Positions 32,825 to 38,046 of a stretch of DNA of 64,000 nucleotides are shown in pieces. A program made the position numbers and the translations under genes. Within the stretch, counting starts at the first letter, position 1. Each line of letters begins with the position of its first letter. Under the pieces are notes generated by a model. The model saw nothing but the letters and a program-made list of their open reading frames with translations. It had not been told where the DNA came from and made no database searches. The DNA comes from Muriicola jejuensis (lineage in GTDB: Bacteria > Bacteroidota > Bacteroidia > Flavobacteriales > Flavobacteriaceae), in contig NZ_JAABOP010000001.1 of NCBI RefSeq assembly GCF_010671595.1, positions 496,001 through 560,000 of the forward strand. Reading direction: 5' to 3'.

Positions 32825-33907
32825 TTATGAATTGATGATCTTTTCCTGGTGGTTGATGGACTCCTGGTGGATGGCTTTGAACATCTTGAGAACAAATTCC
32901 TCACTCAGTCCTTTAGCCTCCCCTTCCAGGATCATCTTCCCGAGGATGGCATTCCAACGGTTGGTCTGCAACACGGCCACGTTCTTCTGTTTCTTCAACA
33001 ACCCTATCCCGTCAGAGACCTGCATCCTCTTCCCGAGGAGATCGATAAGCTGATTGTCAAGAATGTCTATCTGGGCCCGTAAATTACTGAGGTTACTCTT
33101 GTATTCGGCTTCCTCGTCCGTTTCCTTTCTGATCCTGAGGTCTTCCATGATCTGTATGAGTCGTTTGGGGGTTACCTGCTGGGCCGCATCGCTCCAGGCG
33201 TTGTCTGGGTCACAATGCGTCTCTATCATCAATCCGTCAAAATTGAGGTCCAGAGCGGTCTGTGAAACATCAAAGATCATGTCCCGCTTTCCTGTGATGT
33301 GGGAGGGGTCATTGATCAGGGGCAGATCCGGGAACCGTGTCTGCAATTCAATGGCCAGCTGCCATTCGGGTATGTTCCGGTATTTTGTTTTTTCATAAGT
33401 GGAAAAGCCGCGATGGATCACCCCCAATTTTTTGATCCCCGCAGAATGCAGCCGTTCCACGGCGCCCAACCATAGGGAAAGGTCAGGGTTTACTGGGTTC
33501 TTTACAAGGACCACTTTGTCCGTTCCCTCCAGGGCATCGGCGATCTCCTGGACGATAAACGGGCTTACCGTAGACCGGGCCCCTATCCACAGGAGGTCCA
33601 CATCGTGTTCTAGGGCGAGGTCTACATGCGCCTTGTTGGCCACTTCGGTAGCGGTCTTTAATCCGGTTTCCTCCTTGACCTTCTGTAGCCATTTGAGTCC
33701 GATGGCTCCTACTCCCTCGAAATTCCCCGGCCGGGTCCTGGGTTTCCATATTCCGGCCCTATAATAGTTGACATCCGTATCCTTGAGATCGTGGGCGATC
33801 TCCAGCACCTGTTTCTCGGTCTCGGCACTACAGGGTCCTGCGATCACCAATGGGTGGGGCAGGGCCATGTCATCCAGCCAACGTCTCAAATCTTTTGAAT
33901 TTTCCAT
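32825..33907 (-). CDS. Bifunctional DAHP synthase/chorismate mutase
   Basis: Fusion of two shikimate-pathway enzymes, 360 residues. The N-terminal part (about 1-260) is a DAHP synthase of the AroA-beta/KDO8P-synthase class: VIAGPCSAETEKQ, RAGIWKPRTRPGNFEG, KVVLVKNPVNPD, VIHRGF and MIETHCDPD. The C-terminal part (about 265-355) is an AroQ chorismate mutase: LRAQIDILDNQLIDLLGKRM. Last gene of the pheA operon, one base after tyrA. The fused mutase may allow prephenate-dependent regulation of the synthase, as known for related fusions. Confidence 0.95.
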   Translation of the reverse strand: MENSKDLRRWLDDMALPHPLVIAGPCSAETEKQVLEIAHDLKDTDVNYYRAGIWKPRTRPGNFEGVGAIGLKWLQKVKEETGLKTATEVANKAHVDLALEHDVDLLWIGARSTVSPFIVQEIADALEGTDKVVLVKNPVNPDLSLWLGAVERLHSAGIKKLGVIHRGFSTYEKTKYRNIPEWQLAIELQTRFPDLPLINDPSHITGKRDMIFDVSQTALDLNFDGLMIETHCDPDNAWSDAAQQVTPKRLIQIMEDLRIRKETDEEAEYKSNLSNLRAQIDILDNQLIDLLGKRMQVSDGIGLLKKQKNVAVLQTNRWNAILGKMILEGEAKGLSEEFVLKMFKAIHQESINHQEKIINS

Positions 33908-33908
33908 G

Positions 33909-34775
33909 CTATGCTTCTTTTTTGTTCAATGGTATTCCTTTCAGGATTTCCCTGATCTTGTTCGTATCTTCCATTTCGCGGTAGATGCCTTCCATGTCAT
34001 CATCCGCCAGTTTTTTTCTGAATGCCTCCAGGTTTTGGATGTATTCCCGAAGGGTCTCCAGCACATTTTCCCTGTTCTGCTCAAAGATAGGGGTCCACAT
34101 GGCAGGAGAGCTTTTTGCCAGCCTGACGGTGGATTCGAATCCACTTCCCGCCATATCAAAAATATCGCGTTCGTTCTTCTCTTTTTCGATCACCGTCTTT
34201 CCGAGCATGAATGAACTGATATGGGAGAGGTGAGACACATAAGCAATGTGTTTGTCATGTGCCTCCGGGTTCATGTATCGGATCCGCATCCCGATCCTGG
34301 AGAACAGGTCCAGCGCCTTTTCCTGCAGCTTGAAGGCCGTTTTCTCCACCTCGCAAATAATATTCGTCTTTCCTTCATATAATCCCTCCAGGGCTGCCCT
34401 CGGACCTGAGAACTCGGTACCCGCAATGGGATGGCAGGCCATGAAATTCCTGCGCTTCGGGTGGTTGGAGACAACCGCACAGATCAGGGATTTGGTAGAA
34501 CCGGCATCGATCACCAGGGTCTCATCTCCTACGGTGTTGAGCAGGGATGGTAATTCCCTTACGGCAGCATCTACGGGAATGGCCAGGAAAACGATCTCCG
34601 CTTCGGCTAAGGAGGACCCTTTACCTGCCGAATCTATGATCCCCAATTCCAGGGCCGTTTTCAAGTGGTCGGGGTTGTTGTCCATCCCGAAGATCTCAGC
34701 ATCCGGCAGCACCCTTTTCAGGTCCCGGGCAAAGGAACCCCCAATCAAACCCACTCCTATGATTCCAATTTTCAT
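33909..34775 (-). CDS. tyrA: Prephenate dehydrogenase TyrA
   Basis: NAD(P)-dependent oxidative decarboxylation of prephenate to 4-hydroxyphenylpyruvate, for tyrosine. 288 residues. The dinucleotide loop GIIGVGLIGGSFARDL is at the N-terminus, ACHPIAGTEFSGPRAA contains the catalytic His, and HIAYVSHLSHISSF marks the dimer domain. No C-terminal ACT domain is present, so direct feedback by tyrosine through ACT is not expected. The start overlaps the aminotransferase end by 4 bases. Confidence 0.95.
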   Translation of the reverse strand: MKIGIIGVGLIGGSFARDLKRVLPDAEIFGMDNNPDHLKTALELGIIDSAGKGSSLAEAEIVFLAIPVDAAVRELPSLLNTVGDETLVIDAGSTKSLICAVVSNHPKRRNFMACHPIAGTEFSGPRAALEGLYEGKTNIICEVEKTAFKLQEKALDLFSRIGMRIRYMNPEAHDKHIAYVSHLSHISSFMLGKTVIEKEKNERDIFDMAGSGFESTVRLAKSSPAMWTPIFEQNRENVLETLREYIQNLEAFRKKLADDDMEGIYREMEDTNKIREILKGIPLNKKEA

Positions 34776-35929
34776 TTGTCTTGTTTAAATCTCAAAATCG
34801 CCTCTTCGATCTTCTCCGATTCCACGCAAAGGGAGAATCGGATATACCCTTCCCCCTGGCTGCCAAAAATGGTCCCCGGGGCCACAAATATATCTTTCTC
34901 GTACAGCAGTTTGTCAATGAATTCCTCTGAACCCGGTGCCCCTTCCGGCAGGCGCGCCCATACGAACATGCCAACAGCCTCTGGGTCATAGGTACACCCG
35001 AGCAGGCTCGCTAGCCGGAACATATGTTCCCTCCTTTCCCCATAAATCCTGTCGAGGTTCTCGAACCAGGCCCGTCCACTTTTCAGGGCGGCCACCGCAC
35101 CCTTCTGGATCCCGTAGAACATGCCTGAATCCATATTGCTTTTTACTTTCAGGACGGCCTGGATAAGTCCGGCATTACCCAGGACCATCCCTACCCTCCA
35201 GCCGGCCATATTAAAGGTCTTGCTCAGGGAATTGAGTTCTAGAACCCCCTCCCCGGCTCCTTCTGCCTGCAGTATGCTCTTCGGGTCTGAACCCAGGACA
35301 AAGCTGTAGGGGTTGTCGTTCACCAGGAGGATACGGTGTTTCCGGCCAAAGTCGACCAGTTCCTGCCACTGATCCAGGGTCACCGTGGCACCGGTAGGCA
35401 TATGCGGATAGCTTACCCACATGAGTTTTACATGGGAGAGATCCTCCCGGGCGAGCTGCTCGAGATCCGGGAACCACCCCCGCTCTTCATTAAGGGGATA
35501 CGGCCTGGGATTTGCCCCTACAAGTCGAGTAACGGCCTGGTAAGTAGGGTATCCGGGGTCGGGGATCAACACCTCATCCCCTGGGTTCAGGAAAGCCATG
35601 CTGATATGCATGATGCCTTCCTTGGAGCCCATAAGGGGTAGTATCTCTTTTTCCGGATCAGTGGAAACGCCGAACTTCTCCCGGTAAAAGTCGGCAATAG
35701 CCTGCCTTAGCTCAGGCAATCCCTGGTAGCTCTGATACTGGTGAGCTCCGCGGTCTGTTATGGCCTCTTTAAGGGTGCGAAGCACTTCCTCAGAGGGGGC
35801 GAGGTCCGGACTGCCAATACCCATATTGATGATTGGGCGGCCTGATGCTGCCAGTCCCCTGACCTCCTTCAGCTTCCTGGAGAAATAGTATTCCTCTACG
35901 GTATGGAGCCTGTCTGCCGGATCTATCAT
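34772..35929 (-). CDS. Class I/II aminotransferase, probably aromatic
   Basis: PLP-dependent aminotransferase of 385 residues. The Schiff-base Lys is K237 in SLSKTFNMAGWRVG and the Arg binding the carboxylate is near the C-terminus (YIRFSLCVE). The usual PNNPTG motif reads YPHMPTG. Its place between pheA and tyrA, overlapping both neighbours by 4 bases, strongly suggests that it converts phenylpyruvate and 4-hydroxyphenylpyruvate to Phe and Tyr. An aspartate or LL-DAP aminotransferase role cannot be excluded from sequence alone. Confidence 0.9.
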   Translation of the reverse strand: MIDPADRLHTVEEYYFSRKLKEVRGLAASGRPIINMGIGSPDLAPSEEVLRTLKEAITDRGAHQYQSYQGLPELRQAIADFYREKFGVSTDPEKEILPLMGSKEGIMHISMAFLNPGDEVLIPDPGYPTYQAVTRLVGANPRPYPLNEERGWFPDLEQLAREDLSHVKLMWVSYPHMPTGATVTLDQWQELVDFGRKHRILLVNDNPYSFVLGSDPKSILQAEGAGEGVLELNSLSKTFNMAGWRVGMVLGNAGLIQAVLKVKSNMDSGMFYGIQKGAVAALKSGRAWFENLDRIYGERREHMFRLASLLGCTYDPEAVGMFVWARLPEGAPGSEEFIDKLLYEKDIFVAPGTIFGSQGEGYIRFSLCVESEKIEEAILRFKQDK

Positions 35930-36753
35930 AACCTTACATTTTTATACTCTCCCAAGACCCTGAAATCCTCTGACATGATTGTGAGCAGGGATTTGGCCTT
36001 CTCGAAGTGGTCGTACAACTCAAAGGTGACATCCACAAAGAAGGCGTATTTCCAGGGGGTTTCTATGACCGGAAGACTTTGGATCTTGGTGAGGTTCAGG
36101 TTGCAATCGCTCATTACATTCAGCACCGTAGCCAGGCTCCCCCTTTTGTGGTCTGTCAAAAAGCGCAGGGAGGCCTTGTTAATGGTCTCCTTTGGCAATT
36201 CCTTATTGGTCGTTTTTACAATGATAAAGCGGGTTGCATTATTCTTGATGGTCTGTATCTCCGGGGCGATGATCTCCAGGTCGTAAAGCTCAGCGGCTGC
36301 TTTGGGAGCTATGGCCGCGATCCCTGACAGCTGGTTTTCCTGAATGCCCTTTGCGGTCTCAGCCGTATCCACGTCTTCCACCATTTTGATATGCGATTGG
36401 GTCTTTAAAAATTCCCGGCATTGCAAAAGGGCCATGGGGTGGGACCTGACTTCCCGTATATCCGCAAGGGACTGTCCTTTCAGTCCCATGAGGTTATGGT
36501 GGATATTGAGGTAGTGTTCCCCAATGATGTGCAGGTCGTTCTCATAGACCAGGGCGTAATTGGGGATAATGGAACCTGCGATGGAGTTCTCGATGGCCAT
36601 GACGCCCTTGTCTGCTTTCCCGGCCAGGAGCTCATCCACCAGGCCGTGAAAGGAAAGGCATTCCAGCAGGTCTATGTCCTCCCCAAAATACTCTCTTGCC
36701 ACCTGGTGGTGGTTAGATCCTCTTATTCCCTGAATTGCGATACGTTTCTTCAC
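35926..36753 (-). CDS. pheA: Prephenate dehydratase PheA with ACT domain
   Basis: Converts prephenate to phenylpyruvate for phenylalanine synthesis. 275 residues, GTG start. The catalytic TRF motif is at 174-176 (NNATRFIIVK). A C-terminal ACT domain begins near 195. The Phe-binding motifs known from other PheA ACT domains (GALY and ESRP) read GSLA (205-208) and QSLP (225-228), so feedback inhibition may be altered. No chorismate mutase domain is fused here; the mutase is in the last gene of the operon. First structural gene after a leader peptide and attenuator. Confidence 0.95.
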   Translation of the reverse strand: MKKRIAIQGIRGSNHHQVAREYFGEDIDLLECLSFHGLVDELLAGKADKGVMAIENSIAGSIIPNYALVYENDLHIIGEHYLNIHHNLMGLKGQSLADIREVRSHPMALLQCREFLKTQSHIKMVEDVDTAETAKGIQENQLSGIAAIAPKAAAELYDLEIIAPEIQTIKNNATRFIIVKTTNKELPKETINKASLRFLTDHKRGSLATVLNVMSDCNLNLTKIQSLPVIETPWKYAFFVDVTFELYDHFEKAKSLLTIMSEDFRVLGEYKNVRL

Positions 36754-36764
36754 TGCTAATAATC

Positions 36765-36792
36765 AAAAAAAAAGCCCCGATGGGTTCGGGAC
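36765..36792 (-). terminator. Attenuator terminator ahead of pheA
   Basis: On the minus strand GTCCCGA pairs with TCGGGGC (one G-U pair) around ACCCA, followed by nine T, ending 12 bases before the pheA GTG. A terminator in this place would stop the operon before its first structural gene, so it must be conditional. Its 5' arm overlaps a segment that can pair with the end of the leader peptide gene instead. Confidence 0.88.
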
Positions 36793-36830
36793 TTTGCTTA
36801 TATGGTATAACACCTGGCTACAACAGTCCC
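36788..36830 (-). promoter_or_regulatory. Antiterminator pairing in the pheA leader
   Basis: On the minus strand GGGACT (36830-36825), followed by a bulged G and TTG, can pair with CAAAGTCCC (36796-36788): six pairs, a one-base bulge, then three pairs. The 3' half overlaps the 5' arm of the terminator, so the two hairpins exclude each other. GGGACT is inside the last codons of the leader peptide, next to its TAG, where a terminating ribosome would mask it. Confidence 0.75.
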
Positions 36831-36895
36831 TTCCTCTTTTGAAAAAAGAAGTAAAAATAGAAGCTGTTCCAGATGTTCAAAAGCATGGTCTTCAT
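36818..36895 (-). CDS. Phe/Tyr-rich leader peptide of the pheA operon
   Basis: A 25-codon frame reading MKTMLLNIW then NSFYFYFFFQKRKGLL and TAG. Seven consecutive codons are aromatic (five Phe, two Tyr), and one Trp precedes them. An SD-like GGAG lies about 7 bases ahead of the ATG. The stop is 25 bases before the attenuator hairpin and 64 before pheA. By analogy with pheL-type leaders, stalling at Phe/Tyr codons under shortage would leave GGGACT free to form the antiterminator. The peptide itself is predicted to have no other function. Confidence 0.82.
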   Translation of the reverse strand: MKTMLLNIWNSFYFYFFFQKRKGLL

Positions 36896-37149
36896 TAAAA
36901 AACTCCAGCTAAGGTAATTATTAAATCGAGAATTCGACATTTTGGTGGAATTTTTTTTCGAAGTCGCTGTTTTGCGGAGTAAATCTGCTAAAAATGTTTC
37001 AAAGCGCTGATATTTATGAAAAATCCATAATTCTCGTCTTCCTGTTCACACATTTCCCAAGTCGGACCACTCAATTTCAAGGCCCAATCACTAAAGACAA
37101 AAACCTAGTTCGGGGGACTTTGTTTATTTTTATGACGTAAAACAGAATC
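36896..37149. other. Intergenic region between the pheA leader and gldA
   Basis: About 254 bases that must hold the divergent promoters of the pheA operon (minus) and gldA (plus). No exact TAnnTTTG box was found on either strand; TAATTACC (minus, ahead of the leader) and TATTTTTA (plus, about 20 bases before gldA) are imperfect candidates. A minus-strand frame at 36988-37053 is open for 21 codons but has no good start signal. Confidence 0.5.
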
Positions 37150-38046
37150 ATGTCTATCGTAGTTGAACACCTCAGCAAGGCCTATAATGGCCAACCGGCC
37201 CTTAAAGACGTCTCTTTCCAGATAGCCAAGGGAGAGGTAGTCGGCTTTCTGGGGCCCAATGGAGCGGGGAAATCCACCCTCATGAAAATACTCACTACCT
37301 ATCTGAGCGCCGATGATGGCAGGGCCTGGGTAAATGGGTTCGACGTGGCTACCGAAGCCCGAAGTGTTCAGAAGAGCATAGGCTACCTTCCCGAGCACAA
37401 CCCCCTTTACCTTGAGATGTACGTAAAGGAGTACCTTATGTTCATCTCAGAACTTTACGGTGCCACCATGGAAGATGTGATGGAAAGCATTCAGAAAGTA
37501 GGCCTTGAAAGCGAAGCCCGTAAGAAGATCGTACAACTCTCAAAGGGATACCGACAAAGAGTGGGTCTTGCCGCCGCCTTGTTGCACCATCCGGAGGTCC
37601 TGATCCTTGATGAGCCAACGACTGGGCTCGACCCCAATCAGTTGCTGGATATCAGAAGGCTGATCCGGGACCTAGGCAAGGACAGGACGATCCTGCTTTC
37701 CACCCACATCATGAAAGAAGTGGAATCTGTCTGTGACCGTGTCCTGATCATCAACAAGGGAGAATTGGTAGCAGACAAGAAACTGACGGAGCTCAGGGAA
37801 GGAAAAGAACAGATCATCGAGGTCGAATTCGATTACCGGGTGGAAGAAGCCTTCCTGATGAAAATCCCGCATGTGACCCATGTGAAGAACCTGTCGGGTT
37901 TTATGTACGAGATCACTTTCAGTCACCCTGAGGACATGAGGCCCGCGGTTTTCGATTTCGCCCATGACAACCAATTGAAAACCCTCCAGCTGAGCAGGAA
38001 GAACAAGAACCTCGAAAGCCTATTTACAGAATTGACCGGTTCCTGA
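37150..38046 (+). CDS. gldA: Gliding motility ABC transporter ATPase GldA
   Basis: ATP-binding subunit that works with the membrane proteins GldF and GldG in the gliding-associated ABC transporter of flavobacteria. 298 residues. Walker A GPNGAGKST is at 35-43, the signature motif LSKGYRQRVG near 134, Walker B VLILDEPTTGLDP near 157, and the His switch LSTHIM follows. The N-terminus SIVVEHLSKAYNGQPALKDV is characteristic of GldA. gldF and gldG are not in the window. Its stop is 9 bases from a convergent stop. Confidence 0.9.
   Translation: MSIVVEHLSKAYNGQPALKDVSFQIAKGEVVGFLGPNGAGKSTLMKILTTYLSADDGRAWVNGFDVATEARSVQKSIGYLPEHNPLYLEMYVKEYLMFISELYGATMEDVMESIQKVGLESEARKKIVQLSKGYRQRVGLAAALLHHPEVLILDEPTTGLDPNQLLDIRRLIRDLGKDRTILLSTHIMKEVESVCDRVLIINKGELVADKKLTELREGKEQIIEVEFDYRVEEAFLMKIPHVTHVKNLSGFMYEITFSHPEDMRPAVFDFAHDNQLKTLQLSRKNKNLESLFTELTGS

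Follow-up and report, generated by a model that had tools for sequence, protein, structure and literature searches.

What controls the aromatic amino acid operon of Muriicola jejuensis? In the window (the whole 64,000-nt stretch of DNA that was analysed), four minus-strand genes encode enzymes of Phe and Tyr synthesis: pheA, an aminotransferase gene, tyrA and a gene for a DAHP synthase fused to chorismate mutase. This order is kept in all 64 of the loci longer than 12 kb. A sequence-only reading had proposed ribosome-mediated attenuation in the short stretch before pheA. That proposal is supported here by a leader frame in 80/80 related loci and by co-variation, while the response to Phe and Tyr itself is one that we infer. 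On sequence grounds, the pheA leader is very probably a classical ribosome-mediated transcription attenuator of the operon. The parts of the attenuator, their conservation, their geometry and a co-variation of three strands were all observed.

Anatomy of the pheA Leader

The features of the locus are collected in Table 1. The minus-strand frame of 25 codons with seven aromatic codons (FYFYFFF), as described in the sequence-only reading, is present from 36895 to 36818. GGGACT, which had been placed next to the end of this frame, lies inside it, as codons 22–24 (AAG GGA CTG). The stem with nine T before pheA was found as described (stem 36795–36771, T run 36773–36765), as was the pairing of GGGACT, a bulged G and TTG with the 5′ arm of the terminator, which has an energy of −13.7 kcal/mol with CAAAGTCCC. 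The claim of two mutually exclusive structures holds as well, since segment 3 is common to the antiterminator and the terminator.

Table 1. Features of the pheA leader, its operon and the upstream neighbour in the window.
Feature	Position	Strand	Remarks
Promoter-like element, TACCTTAG (TAnnTTAG)	36909..36916	(-)	present in 76 of 81 loci
Leader peptide frame, MKTMLLNIWNSFYFYFFFQKRKGLL, and stop TAG	36818..36895	(-)	25 codons; ATG at 36895
Second in-frame ATG of leader	36886	(-)	relatives' leaders begin near there
Trp codon TGG, codon 9 of leader	36869..36871	(-)	
Control codons FYFYFFF, codons 12–18	36842..36862	(-)	
Small hairpin, segment 1	36833..36853	(-)	last control codons with the purine-rich codons after them
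Segment 2, GGGACT-G-TTG	36821..36830	(-)	within last leader codons AAG GGA CTG TTG; pairing and co-variation
Segment 3, CAAAGTCCC	36788..36796	(-)	common to antiterminator and terminator 5′ arm
Terminator hairpin, AAAGTCCCGA/TCGGGGCTTT, segments 3:4	36771..36795	(-)	10 pairs
Terminator T run, nine T	36765..36773	(-)	first three T pair with AAA of 5′ arm
pheA, prephenate dehydratase	35926..36753	(-)	PF00800; GTG start
Class I/II aminotransferase	34772..35929	(-)	PF00155
tyrA, prephenate dehydrogenase	33909..34775	(-)	PF02153, PF20463
DAHP synthase fused to chorismate mutase	32825..33907	(-)	PF00793, PF01817
ABC transporter ATPase gene, upstream neighbour	37150-38046	opposite to pheA operon	

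The 41-nt stretch 36760–36800 folds at −14 kcal/mol, and none of 200 shuffles was as stable. Eleven bases lie between the T run and the GTG of pheA (36753). The hairpin is not the trailing terminator of the ABC transporter gene, because that gene runs the other way.

Conservation in Close Relatives

Genome contigs were scanned with the pheA protein, which gave at least 552 confirmed relatives. The best 80 of these were kept, and represent Muriicola, Eudoraea, Maribacter, Zobellia, Arenibacter, Allomuricauda and other Flavobacteriaceae. An aromatic leader lies no more than 400 nt upstream of pheA in every one of these best 80 loci, in agreement with the sequence-only reading, which had expected the frame to be kept in close relatives. 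A leader was defined as an ATG frame of 10–45 codons with at least six F, Y or W in 10 codons, and the window leader entered the computed counts from its second ATG. At this threshold, leaders were found in 81/81 upstream regions of 400 nt (the window and the 80 loci), versus 1/81 on the reverse strand and 1/243 among shuffles.

The layout of the leaders is highly uniform. The last aromatic codon is followed by seven more codons in 81/81 (aromatics within the last three codons left out), and each of the seven control positions is F or Y in 74 to 81 of the 81 leaders. For example, position −9 is F in all 81, and positions −10 and −12 are F in 80. The codon-9 position is occupied by W in 55 leaders, by Y or F in 25 and by G in one. 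The consensus among close relatives reads MTxxYFWNGFYFYFFFKRGTGLL. The codon at −10 is TTC in 80/81 leaders, whereas the pheA genes of the 64 long loci use TTT far more often than TTC (560 versus 136). The stretch from codon −11 to codon −5 was compared with 100 synonymous recodings. In 74 of the 81 leaders, no more than five of these folded more stably, which is a sign of a small hairpin corresponding to segment 1 of the window. Segment 1 itself could be a pause or protector hairpin.

In 76/81 loci, the element TAnnTTAG lies no more than 45 nt before the leader ATG. A TTG at 14–27 nt further upstream was found in only 21 of these 76, and no clear partner box emerged. We compare TAnnTTAG with TAnnTTTG, which we take to be the flavobacterial −7 consensus. 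On this comparison of motifs, TAnnTTAG is possibly the −7 box of the leader promoter, in a variant form of the flavobacterial element.

Terminator, Pairing and Co-Variation

When the threshold was relaxed to five aromatics in 10 codons, 219 of 251 upstream regions contained a leader, including a few likely chance frames (L148, L276), and a terminator follows in 218 of the 219. Removal of L221, which has no terminator, and of seven repeats of an identical leader-to-terminator sequence left 211 distinct cases. A stem of −8 kcal/mol or better is present in 210/211 of the real regions versus 1/211 shuffled stretches, and a loose terminator finder reports something in 40/211 shuffles.

The leader end pairs with the 5′ arm of the terminator at a median of −13.6 kcal/mol in the 211 cases, versus an average of −6.2 for shuffled leader ends. 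At most one of 50 shuffles matches the real pairing in 183/211. Foreign arms also pair fairly well (−10.2 versus −13.6 kcal/mol for the own arm, on average), and when the own arm was ranked against 60 foreign arms, it came in the top 10% in only 90/211. Since the arms are alike and foreign arms pair too, co-variation provides a more stringent test.

Of 210 cases (one arm with a gap was left out), 150 have a perfect 5-base complement to the core of their own arm. When arms were permuted among loci 500 times, the mean was 70.1 and the maximum 85. Among the 117 loci with a core other than GTCCCG, there were 70 complements against a permutation mean of 27.6 and a maximum of 41. The change extends to three strands. 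At one column of arm, leader and return strand, the combinations are CGG in 148 cases, TAA in 31 and TAG in 27, and at another they are GCC in 152 and ATT in 14, although these column counts lean to pairing because the pairs were picked by a pairing program.

The compensatory changes that the sequence-only reading had proposed to look for in both hairpins are found in the three-strand co-variation, and in part in an alignment (A2). This alignment took in 91 of 97 references, with 25 of the 91 rows out of register. Changes on both sides occur in 6/9 antiterminator pairs (shuffle mean 3.4, reached by 1/500), with paired cells barely above shuffles (82.7 versus 81.2%) and with 24 doubly changed cells when the antiterminator was slid by +1 versus 21 in register. 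The terminator has 42 doubly changed cells (shuffle mean 11.5, reached by 0/500), and its doubly changed pairs and pair types are within shuffles (reached by 92 and 171 of 500, respectively). As a side observation, inspection of A2 by eye shows a small AT-rich inverted repeat (for example, AATATTGT..ACAATATA in L025) that recurs between leader stop and terminator, within the loop of the antiterminator.

Geometry and Proposed Mechanism

In the 211 cases, the median distance from the last aromatic codon to the start of segment 2 is 13 nt. The first paired base of segment 2 is at least 9 nt past that codon in 198/211, and in 175/211 the whole segment falls between −16 and +14 relative to the stop. 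A ribosome was assumed to cover 9 nt beyond the A codon. This spacing, taken with the usual footprint, means that segment 2 would be freed on stalling and masked when a ribosome is at the stop.

The proposed sequence of events is as follows. Transcription would start shortly before the leader frame. If charged tRNA-Phe or tRNA-Tyr were short, the translating ribosome would stall in the FYFYFFF run, and segment 2, just beyond its 3′ edge, would be free to pair with segment 3 as soon as the latter is transcribed. The terminator could then not form, and pheA, the aminotransferase gene, tyrA and the DAHP synthase–chorismate mutase gene would be read. If aromatic amino acids were plentiful, the ribosome at the stop codon would cover segment 2, segments 3 and 4 would pair, and transcription would end before pheA. 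A leader without translation would also fold into the terminating form.

Predicted folds were obtained for each of these states. The terminator is predicted in 210/211 with a ribosome at the stop, and in 206/211 for free RNA. With a stalled ribosome and the complete RNA, the minimum-energy fold has the terminator in 162/211 and the antiterminator in 49/211, with the window among the 49. A thermodynamic switch in the full RNA is thus not general. Since the terminator wins in 162 complete RNAs, the order of formation must matter for most loci, where the antiterminator would have to form first. Before the return strand is made, the antiterminator is predicted in 210/211 stalled cases, a weak result because shuffled leader ends also meet the threshold of at least four pairs in 165/211. 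At seven or more pairs, the numbers are 208 real versus 119 shuffled.

Distribution in Bacteroidota

A search of 120 family, 119 class and 148 phylum genomes showed a pheA gene in 102, 31 and 128 of them, respectively. The upstream analysis covered 101 family matches (the window's own left out), 29 class matches and 40 phylum-set loci. The genomes with G numbers were assigned to Flavobacteriaceae or Bacteroidia by their kinship to the window and to named loci. The resulting counts are not independent, as G336 is present twice (L229, L257) and some of these genomes may share their species with a named locus.

At the threshold of six aromatics in 10 codons, leaders precede pheA in 97/101 same-family loci. 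Two of the four loci without a leader have only 128 and 373 nt upstream. In other families of the class, leaders were found in 18 of 27 loci and were absent from nine; two further class-set loci belong to the family of the window, and both have a leader. In L248–L267, which combine family and class loci with three from outside the class, there are leaders in 18/20. No leader was found in 20 loci read from other classes of the phylum (L268–L287). Reverse strands gave 3/130 in the family and class sets and 0/20 in each of the other two. The three loci that fall outside the class, though within the phylum (L260, L261 and L265), have an aromatic leader and pheA scores like those of the class. Transfer, deep ancestry and uncertain placement are candidate explanations.

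Across the family and class the peptide diverges, and the aromatic run, the terminator and the complementarity between leader end and 5′ arm stay. A profile of the leader peptide (A1) was compared with 395 class genomes, 30 of which had a match. Only three matches were clear (E below 1e-8), namely the window genome, G375 and G392; the other 27, with E between 7.8e-4 and 0.1, were taken for chance. The leader peptide is therefore a poor probe beyond close relatives, and reading upstream of pheA is better.

Amino Acids Probably Read by the Leader

Codons for Phe and Tyr occur in all 211 leaders, and codons for Trp in 135. W is present in 38 of 76 leaders under 60% identity versus 26% expected (binomial 6.6e-6), in 20 of 51 under 50% identity (0.028) and in 13 of 32 under 40% (0.06), where the expectation assumes a rate of 1.3% and seven window proteins gave 1.44%. 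These numbers are no more than suggestive of Trp as a third signal, the least certain part of the reading. Control by Phe and Tyr fits an operon for both amino acids, and Trp would fit the DAHP synthase step.

Alternative Explanations

The frame might instead encode a nascent-peptide arrest leader, of which TnaC and ErmC leaders are examples. The peptide itself would then detect a ligand while in the exit tunnel and bring the ribosome to a halt, and the conservation of non-aromatic residues in the consensus of close relatives is in line with such a role. However, family and class peptides diverge to forms such as MTTTVFYTYFNFYFFFSKRNETLYV or MASNRFYFSNNFYFFFSRSQDCAMVI, in which little more than the aromatic content is retained, and changes in leader ends go with the terminator arm. 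For instance, six leaders have P for L at the next-to-last position, and the matching arm change (GGTCCC) is present in four and absent in two. We consider peptide arrest very unlikely. That the frame is fortuitous, and the hairpin a constitutive terminator that lowers pheA expression by partial termination with no sensing, agrees with the strength of the terminator (−14 kcal/mol for the stretch), but such a hairpin leaves the aromatic frame (81/81 versus 1/81 on the reverse strand), the invariant spacing to the leader stop and the co-variation of leader codons with the terminator arm without explanation, and is extremely improbable.

Control might also be exerted by another RNA sensor, such as a T-box or an aptamer, or at pheA translation instead of transcription. 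In one region out of four, terminator and pheA are more than 54 nt apart, which leaves room for other elements. In this genome, however, the corresponding distance is only 11 nt, the window has no Rfam family at gathering score, and a terminator is nearly always found after the leader (218/219), so control of this kind is scarcely credible. Ribosome-mediated attenuation is by far the preferred reading.

Relation to Known Leaders

Rfam 15 at gathering score reports no family in the 64,000 nt of the window. The Phe_leader family (RF01859) reaches 22.8 bits versus a gathering score of 55 (E 0.16), and the pheA leader is therefore not a member. The E. coli pheL/pheA system that this family describes is nevertheless similar in kind: like the window leader, it is rich in Phe codons, its control codons pair with the purines that follow, and it has an exclusive antiterminator and terminator. 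The two differ in that the control codons of pheL are Phe alone, whereas the window leader mixes Phe and Tyr, with Trp often in leaders of this type, and in that the operon here also carries tyrA and DAHP synthase–chorismate mutase. Several amino acids are read by one leader in thrL and ilvL of enterobacteria as well, although the amino acids and operons are different.

A device of the same kind is known in the same phylum. The Bacteroid-trp leader (RF01692, Bacteroidete tryptophan peptide leader RNA), which is listed in Weinberg et al. 2010 (PMC2864571), differs from the pheA leader in its Trp codons and its gene, trpE. In a further Rfam scan of 30 loci (20 pheA, five trpE and five hisG), RF01692 matches 3/5 trpE loci (L243, L308 and L315), and no leader family was found at gathering score at the 20 pheA or five hisG loci, with RF01692 absent from the window pheA leader. 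The remaining matches were Flavo-1 and tRNA. Separately, two Flavo-1 RNAs (RF01705) are located in the pheA locus of a same-family relative (L141:94-169 and 2707-2784).

Other amino acid operons of these bacteria have leaders too. Trp-run leaders precede trpE in 19 of the 21 loci read (L306–L326), and His-run leaders precede hisG in 18 of 19 loci, including that of the window genome, hisG having been found in 19 of 31 relatives; reverse strands gave 0 in both cases. The trpE loci without an ATG leader are L307 and that of the window genome. The latter has a leader with a GTG start, VNRITVHTWWWKNLRPMS, and a terminator-like hairpin (L243:723-839; RF01692 at 55.6 bits, gathering 49). The hisG leader of the same genome, MNNQNTHHHSASRPQAG, is followed by a hairpin, AACCCGTTTGA (L242, about 1209-1330). 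One pass for a threonine leader before two homoserine dehydrogenase genes gave nothing convincing.

The sequence-only reading knew of no described flavobacterial case. This no longer stands, as Bacteroid-trp (RF01692) came earlier, and so did a 2021 study of Flavobacterium psychrophilum (PMC9723704), which names a structured element 5′ of pheA that other genera of Flavobacteriaceae share. The same study gives clues for leader-peptide attenuation before amino acid operons in that species. Its pheA element is probably the one described here; it is named there, as far as the main text consulted goes, in one line, to which we add the sequence of the leader, its pairing and its occurrence outside the family. 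The authors of a 2010 paper (PMC2965389) state that, before the Firmicute case they described, they knew of leader-peptide systems shown only in Proteobacteria and Actinobacteria, and leader-like short frames are mentioned for Bacteroides thetaiotaomicron in PMC7366714. A fuller account of the pheA leader was not found among the open-access papers searched.

Implications

The kind of attenuator has long been known, and the pheA element is named before in one transcriptome study, as far as its accessible text goes (PMC9723704). Added here are the anatomy, the three-strand co-variation and the spread over the class, and possibly the reading of all three aromatics.

A broader picture can be drawn only tentatively, and we hold it to be somewhat doubtful as a whole. 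One leader may read Phe, Tyr and Trp codons side by side and govern the operon of the whole branch, including the first enzyme of the common pathway, and may have been present in the ancestor of Bacteroidia. For classical attenuation to work, a ribosome has to follow the polymerase closely. The upkeep of this leader, together with the His and Trp leaders, would then imply that ribosome and RNA polymerase are coupled closely enough for it in these bacteria, which are said to lack Shine-Dalgarno signals.

A mode of regulation is proposed for the aromatic operon of a major group of marine and soil bacteria, at whose pheA leader no Rfam model reached threshold here. The locus also offers an example of concerted change in the leader codons, the arm of the terminator and its return strand.
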